From: Mageeibacillus indolicus UPII9-5
GTDB taxonomy: Bacteria; Bacillota; Clostridia; Saccharofermentanales; Fastidiosipilaceae
Reading direction: 5' to 3'
Assembly: GCF_000025225.2 (NCBI RefSeq)
Contig: NC_013895.2
Coordinates: 1,550,001-1,614,000, forward strand
DNA: 64,000 nucleotides
The notes beneath the pieces were generated by a model. That model did no database searches. It saw only the letters and a list, made by a program, of their open reading frames with translations, and had not been told where the DNA came from. Below, in pieces: positions 8,087 to 8,246 of the stretch (positions are counted from its first letter, which is position 1; each line of letters begins with the position of its first letter). The translations under genes and the position numbers were made by a program.

Positions 8087-8134
8087 AAAAAAGCAAAAGT
8101 GTCCGAACCGCAACGCGATCTCGTATACTTTTGC
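8087..8134 (-). terminator. Leader terminator (putative attenuator) upstream of the 4479-7955 adhesin
   Basis: On the minus strand GCAAAAGT and ACTTTTGC (8127-8134 and 8093-8100) pair around a loop that can form further short stems (CGA/TCG, CGC/GCG), and six T residues follow at 8092-8087. It lies about 130 bases upstream of the start codon and downstream of the predicted promoter, so it would stop transcription before the gene. A similar element stands before the 59139-60974 gene. Confidence 0.55.
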
Positions 8135-8164
8135 TGATAAACTATAGGCAGCCGAAACTTACAG

Positions 8165-8213
8165 CTGTCTGTCTGTCTGTCTGTCTGTCTGTCTGTCTGT
8201 CTGTCTGTCTGTC
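8165..8213. repeat. Tetranucleotide microsatellite (CTGT)12
   Basis: Forty-nine bases of uninterrupted CTGT repeat (12.25 copies; ACAG on the transcribed minus strand). It begins immediately after the predicted -10 box of the adhesin promoter, so it forms the 5' end of the leader RNA. Long tetranucleotide runs change length by slipped-strand mispairing. Confidence 0.97.
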
Positions 8214-8216
8214 AAA

Positions 8217-8246
8217 ATCATGCCTGAAAAAGTCATATGCTGTCAA
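8217..8246 (-). promoter_or_regulatory. Predicted promoter of the thioester adhesin gene
   Basis: Minus-strand TTGACA (8246-8241), an 18-base spacer, then CATGAT (8222-8217). The start point would fall at the beginning of the ACAG repeat, giving a leader of about 255 bases. The -35 is perfect and the -10 is weak. The context GGTTGACA followed by a CATGA-like stretch recurs at 61131-61136. Confidence 0.5.

Follow-up and report, generated by a model that had tools for sequence, protein, structure and literature searches.

A GACA-repeat leader upstream of a thioester adhesin gene in Mageeibacillus indolicus UPII9-5, a probable phase-variable leader-peptide attenuator

In the pil1 and pil3 operons of S. 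gallolyticus, GCAGA repeats located within a leader ORF set its reading frame, and leaders that reach the hairpin increase transcription (Danne et al., 2014; PMC3894217). Removal of the ATG, deletion of the terminator, stops in all frames and chloramphenicol gave results matching this model, while the stop mutant displayed a small unexpected rise. Expression was low with 22 copies, which put the stop 5' of the terminator (both 39 and 49 nt are stated as the distance), and high with 21 or 23 (PMC3894217). The number of simple repeats near an adhesin gene also sets the expression of nadA in Neisseria meningitidis, where the repeat is located upstream, between repressor sites (PMC2791445). The LOS genes of Haemophilus influenzae are coding tetranucleotide contingency loci, and GACA repeats are mentioned there (PMC3938747); in such loci, an in-frame tetranucleotide shifts the frame by the gain or loss of one unit. 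In trp-type attenuation, terminator formation depends on the position of the ribosome on a leader peptide. Searches of the open-licence literature for the repeat sequence analyzed here or its peptide yielded nothing relevant, and those for "GACA repeats" together with phase variation yielded nothing outside Haemophilus.

The window analyzed here is a stretch of 64,000 nucleotides of the M. indolicus UPII9-5 chromosome (NC_013895.2). A preliminary description had placed a TTGACA/CATGAT promoter, 12 tetranucleotide repeats starting at the expected +1, a hairpin with a T6 tail and a thioester adhesin gene in this region. All of these elements were present, on the minus strand, and the position of the array at the expected +1 was correct. 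The adhesin assignment was confirmed by a match to NF012162 (E=2.5e-48) together with SpaA domains; PF22343 and PF17802 also matched. The earlier account had overlooked an ATG preceded by the SD-like sequence GAAGAGG, located 23 nt 5' of the array, with a frame open through the array (Table 1).

Table 1. Elements of the adhesin leader region, in positions of the window
Feature	Position	Strand	Basis
Candidate upstream promoter P1, extended -10 TGTTAAAAT, weak -35	8274..8282	-	sequence
SD-like GAAGAGG of the leader ORF	8247..8253	-	sequence; anti-SD pairing in the family
TTGACA, -35-like hexamer (P2), between SD-like sequence and ATG	8241..8246	-	
CATGAT, -10-like hexamer (P2), three bases 5' of the array	8217..8222	-	family -10 consensus
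(GACA)12 array	8166..8213	-	open in all three frames
Leader ORF encoding 25 aa with 12 copies, MTFSGMILTDRQTDRQTDRQTDRQL followed by a stop (starts MTFSGMILTDRQ)	8159..8236	-	
Small hairpin where the array ends, possibly a pause site or a competing hairpin	8149..8167	-	
Predicted intrinsic terminator, 44-nt hairpin plus T6	8087..8135	-	folding; similarly placed in 21/24 leader loci
GGAGG, adhesin gene ribosome binding site	7962..7970	-	
LPXTG-type surface adhesin of 1158 aa, thioester-forming and with SpaA domains	4479..7955	-	

Tandem Repeats Finder (TRF) reported the array as CTGT with 12.2 copies (8165-8213, 100% match). The spacer between TTGACA and CATGAT was 18 nt (minus strand, 8246-8217). 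The hairpin (8135-8092, with T6 at 8092-8087) folded at -18.2 kcal/mol as compared with -9.9 for shuffled sequences (z = -3.5), and the T run was separated from the adhesin ATG (7955) by 131 nt. No match to a known riboswitch or T-box was found in the window with the Rfam 15 covariance models at gathering score, and this class of regulator was rejected. Upstream of the leader, a gene encoding an LRR protein (8374-9975) had the same orientation as the adhesin gene and ended 128 nt before the leader SD. A 365-aa IS605 OrfB/TnpB-type protein was encoded beside the surface-protein genes (10307-11404, minus strand). Within the adhesin coding sequence, two 354-bp tandem repeats (4748-5472, 86% match) could alter protein length. 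Two 18-bp tandem arrays, with 3.9 perfect copies (57506-57575) and 5.7 copies at 83% (47597-47698), were also detected in the window.

The GACA array encodes DRQT in every frame and contains no stop in any of them, therefore copy number sets only the frame in which the array is left. With the array at its present 12 copies, the leader stop is located at +7 from the array end (8159), 22 nt 5' of the hairpin; on the same count the hairpin spans +29 to +73. With 13 copies the leader would consist of 32 aa and stop at +24 (8142), 5 nt 5' of the hairpin and thus at its edge, and with 11 copies it would consist of 62 aa and stop at +122 (8044), beyond the hairpin. An N-terminal extension of the adhesin, as in a coding contingency locus, was rejected, since all frames stop (+7, +24 and +122 of 210 nt) before its ATG. 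The effect of copy number must therefore be on transcription or coupling and not on the frame of the protein.

The locus resembles pil1 and pil3 in having a non-triplet repeat inside a short leader ORF with a ribosome binding site and a start codon, 5' of a surface-protein gene (there an adhesin or pilus gene), an intrinsic terminator (here a predicted one) between the leader ORF and the structural gene, and a copy number that decides whether the leader stops short of the hairpin, at its edge or past it. It differs in its unit, which is GACA (4 nt) as opposed to GCAGA (5 nt), and in the position of the array just after a conserved promoter-like element. Furthermore, the module occurs in Clostridia with many gene families, including enzyme genes and hsdS, whereas the streptococcal leaders belong to pilus operons. 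In comparison with trp-type attenuation, the input would be a frame mutation and not an amino-acid level, and the downstream gene is not biosynthetic.

Because the leader ORF in the first loci could have arisen by chance, a scan independent of the ATG was chosen. The pattern GTTGACA, 15 to 45 nt, TTGACAGACAGACAG, which demands no start codon, -10 or terminator, was searched in the genomes of 84,980 species. It yielded 88 stretches, nearly all with a span of 44-48 nt despite the wide range allowed, and revealed both a promoter-like element and a start codon. The module was present in at least 57 distinct loci, the set left after redundancy and hsdS were removed and selected in part by TTGACA plus the array; many of these relatives come from metagenome assemblies in which the array lies at the end of a contig. 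In 47 of the 57, TTGACA was followed within 9 nt by an ATG or GTG whose frame stays open into the array, as compared with 14 expected from shuffled spacers, and only 2 of 54 start codons lay in the frame that meets the TGA of TTGACA. Pairing with the anti-SD upstream was also stronger across the family (-8.0 versus -6.1 kcal/mol in shuffles). No ATG or GTG occupied the leader-start position in L089 and the Lactococcus pair L045/L114. Two arrays from another genus of the same family, found by the array only, displayed the ATG at -23, a terminator and a surface protein. Copy number varied between near-identical loci of other species, with 10, 11 and 12 copies in one family of loci and 11 and 12 in another.

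The loci separated into two classes. In the leader class, the array ended about 80-350 nt 5' of a gene that mostly encoded a secreted or surface protein, with products such as BspA-type LRR, InlB-repeat, Big_2, VWA tip pilin, SLH, choline-binding, beta-helix and SpaA proteins; the exceptions were a helicase, an FkbH-like protein and a zinc-ribbon protein. Intrinsic terminators (-10 kcal/mol or lower plus a T tract) were detected in 21 of 24 leader loci as compared with 26% of shuffles, while in coding-class loci they were no commoner than in shuffles. The terminator stems had no sequence in common between loci, indicating that the layout is conserved and not the sequence. Upstream promoters scoring at least 10/12 preceded 10 of the 24 leaders (1.1 expected). 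In 19 of the 24 (8 expected), exactly one frame met a stop no more than 9 nt past the array. Under an assumed footprint rule, in which the stop plus 12 nt must cover 6 or more nt of the stem, one or two frames reached the hairpin in each of the 21 leaders whose terminator was mapped, and none or all frames in 0/21. About 5/21 would show none or all under the null, and by our own arithmetic the chance of 21/21 is roughly 0.003. In their present frames, eight of these leaders reach the hairpin, 11 stop short and two are without a start codon. The array tail also paired more strongly in leader loci than in shuffles (-8.5 versus -5.8 kcal/mol). In the leader class only, the 3' end of the array paired with downstream sequence (CTGTC, present in 6/23 leaders as compared with 0.5 expected), giving a second hairpin, which is possibly a pause or competing hairpin.

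In the coding class, the array was fused to the N-terminus of enzymes such as acyltransferases, a GtrII glucosyltransferase and AMP-binding enzymes, with Acyl_transf_3 in seven of the scanned proteins. These genes resemble coding contingency loci, unlike the adhesin gene of the window, and are likely phase-variable surface-polysaccharide genes. In-frame N-terminal arrays were observed in diverse Clostridia (L041, L050, L054, L062, L075, L081, L086, L090, L100 and L115). A hybrid histidine kinase began just past its array, and hsdS arrays preceded a further Methylase_S domain. In the hybrid sensor kinase loci L139, L141, L055, L097 and L106, the array ran straight into the SD (GGAG) and the ATG start codon of the kinase gene, with two of the leader frames ending on TAATATGA across this codon. 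This arrangement looks like a putative frame-set translational coupling.

The array of the window is far beyond chance: only three ACAG arrays of at least 4 units, with two mismatches allowed, were detected in the 1,809,746-bp genome of M. indolicus. All three are located in ORFs of surface or specificity genes. The second array (14 copies) precedes a sortase-type surface protein gene (L010:7966-10242) in the same order as in the window, with TTGACA, the array, a hairpin with a T tail and the gene. Both leaders have an ATG exactly 23 nt 5' of the first GACA, in the same frame and open into the array, and the module in this genome is confined to these two leaders. The L010 leader (L010:7640-7966) closely resembles that of L116 (record title Atopobium sp.), the former with 14 copies and the latter with 22. 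A horizontal transfer of the leader and a change in repeat length are probable. The third array (21 copies) is coding and lies near the 3' end of a type I hsdS (gene at L009:7149-8450, stretch L009:6535-8450; genome C1:376534-378449), with the peptide DRQTDRQT. Two of its frames stop at once, and the third stays open for about 626 nt and enters another specificity segment. The gene also carries 12-bp TAEL repeats. This hsdS is a candidate for phase-variable restriction specificity. Similar hsdS arrays were found in L043, L068, L104, L129, L136 and L144. The other fetched surface-protein loci of this genome contained no further arrays of units up to 4 nt.

The preliminary description had read TTGACA/CATGAT as the promoter of the transcript, with a repeat number that could influence promoter spacing or transcript start. 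The array starts three bases 3' of the -10-like hexamer, hence copy number cannot change the spacing between -35 and -10, and a repeat-spacing promoter of the nadA type was rejected for the same position, since the array lies neither upstream of nor between promoter or operator elements. In our model it is transcribed and translated, whereas the nadA repeat lies between repressor sites upstream. Promoter-like matches in the region (6 versus 5.3 expected) do not place this TTGACA/CATGAT above background, and its backing comes from related loci. Among 17 arrays collected by the array alone, to avoid scan bias, an exact TTGACA at -31 to -34 was present in 16 (0.09 expected) and a best -10 of at least 5/6 in seven (0.7 expected), indicating that the promoter-like element represents a genuinely conserved pattern. 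A TTGACA-17-TATAAT pattern precedes nearly every GACA array, including those in hsdS and leader ORFs, and the spacers were unrelated (0.29 identity over the 57 loci). A working promoter, from which an untranslated array beginning at the first repeat tunes transcript start, stability or terminator folding, would agree with this conservation, with the unconserved spacers and with the correct +1 position. Tetranucleotide repeats located 5' of uspA2 in Moraxella are reported to have a similar effect. However, such an mRNA would be without the start codon of the leader, which is conserved in 47 of the 57 loci, so that a start in the array is not the whole story even though the TTGACA is strongly conserved there. 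Nor would a working promoter of this kind account for the upstream promoters, the rarity of start codons in the frame with the stop and the rule of one or two frames. In addition, the element lies inside hsdS, and in L138 it follows the leader ATG; a role as untranslated leader would be meaningless at these places, and we consider this explanation improbable. Because an mRNA starting at the array would be without a start codon in every class, P2 may serve the array and not the gene, and its presence in leaders, enzyme genes and hsdS alike fits a repeat-linked job. In hsdS, TTGACA may partly reflect a conserved LLTF peptide. One tentative and rather unlikely suggestion is that P2 is a real promoter or polymerase pause site that would raise slippage by transcription, make GACA-repeat RNA or hold the polymerase for the first ribosome.

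The hairpin might also be the terminator of the LRR gene, with the array as a neutral intergenic repeat, and the orientation and proximity of that gene agree with this. But a hairpin follows the start signal and array in 21 of 24 leader loci with unrelated neighbours and stems, and arrays this rare in the genome all lie within ORFs of surface or specificity genes, which makes such an origin very improbable. The strong terminator and the pairing of the array tail with downstream sequence in leader loci could be expected of an attenuator that senses a ligand or protein, with the array as a repeated RNA-binding site of which only the total length counts. This is hardly credible given the absence of an Rfam match, the stems without common sequence and the frame logic in 21/21 leaders.

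From the observed anatomy and reading frames, the layout conserved over 57 loci and the copy-number differences among near-identical loci, we infer the transcription start, leader translation, termination, slippage in this species and ON/OFF assignment of the following model. The element in the window is most probably a phase-variable leader-peptide attenuator, in which repeat number sets the state of the adhesin. Transcription would begin 5' of 8253 and ribosomes would start the short leader ORF at 8236, leaving the GACA array in the frame decided by copy number. By analogy with pil1 and pil3, expression would be low at 12 copies, high at 11 and either high or intermediate at 13. With 12 copies the ribosome would stop 7 nt after the array, the hairpin would form and most transcription would end, and the adhesin of the sequenced strain is thus predicted to be mostly OFF. 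With 11 copies, or a number equal modulo 3, the leader would cross the hairpin and the ribosome would hold it open (ON). With 13, the footprint of a ribosome at the stop 5 nt 5' of the hairpin would cover part of its 5' arm (ON or intermediate). Slipped-strand mispairing would alter copy number randomly and give mixed populations. Several points count against the attenuator: P1 of the window is weak (promoter score 8/12 at best), the model does not need the conserved promoter-like element at the array, L089 and L045/L114 have no start codon at the leader position, and the locus set was selected in part by TTGACA plus the array. The earlier proposal, phase-variable expression set by how termination and read-through are balanced, has good support in its outcome, while the mechanism suggested here differs in that it would act by the repeat-set frame of a leader ORF.

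The leader-repeat switch, proven so far in the open-licence literature only in the pili of S. gallolyticus, thus appears to be widespread in Clostridia, and the same GACA repeat also occurs in surface-polysaccharide, signalling and restriction genes. The result suggests a reason for the separate leader ORF of proteins with signal peptides as opposed to the N-terminal repeat of enzymes. Genes with signal peptides would use a separate leader with an attenuator and enzymes a direct fusion, because DRQT repeats added at the N-terminus would disrupt a signal peptide. A simple rule, repeat number modulo 3 against terminator position, gives predicted ON and OFF states of surface proteins and applies to bacteria in which repeat-based phase variation has been little studied.
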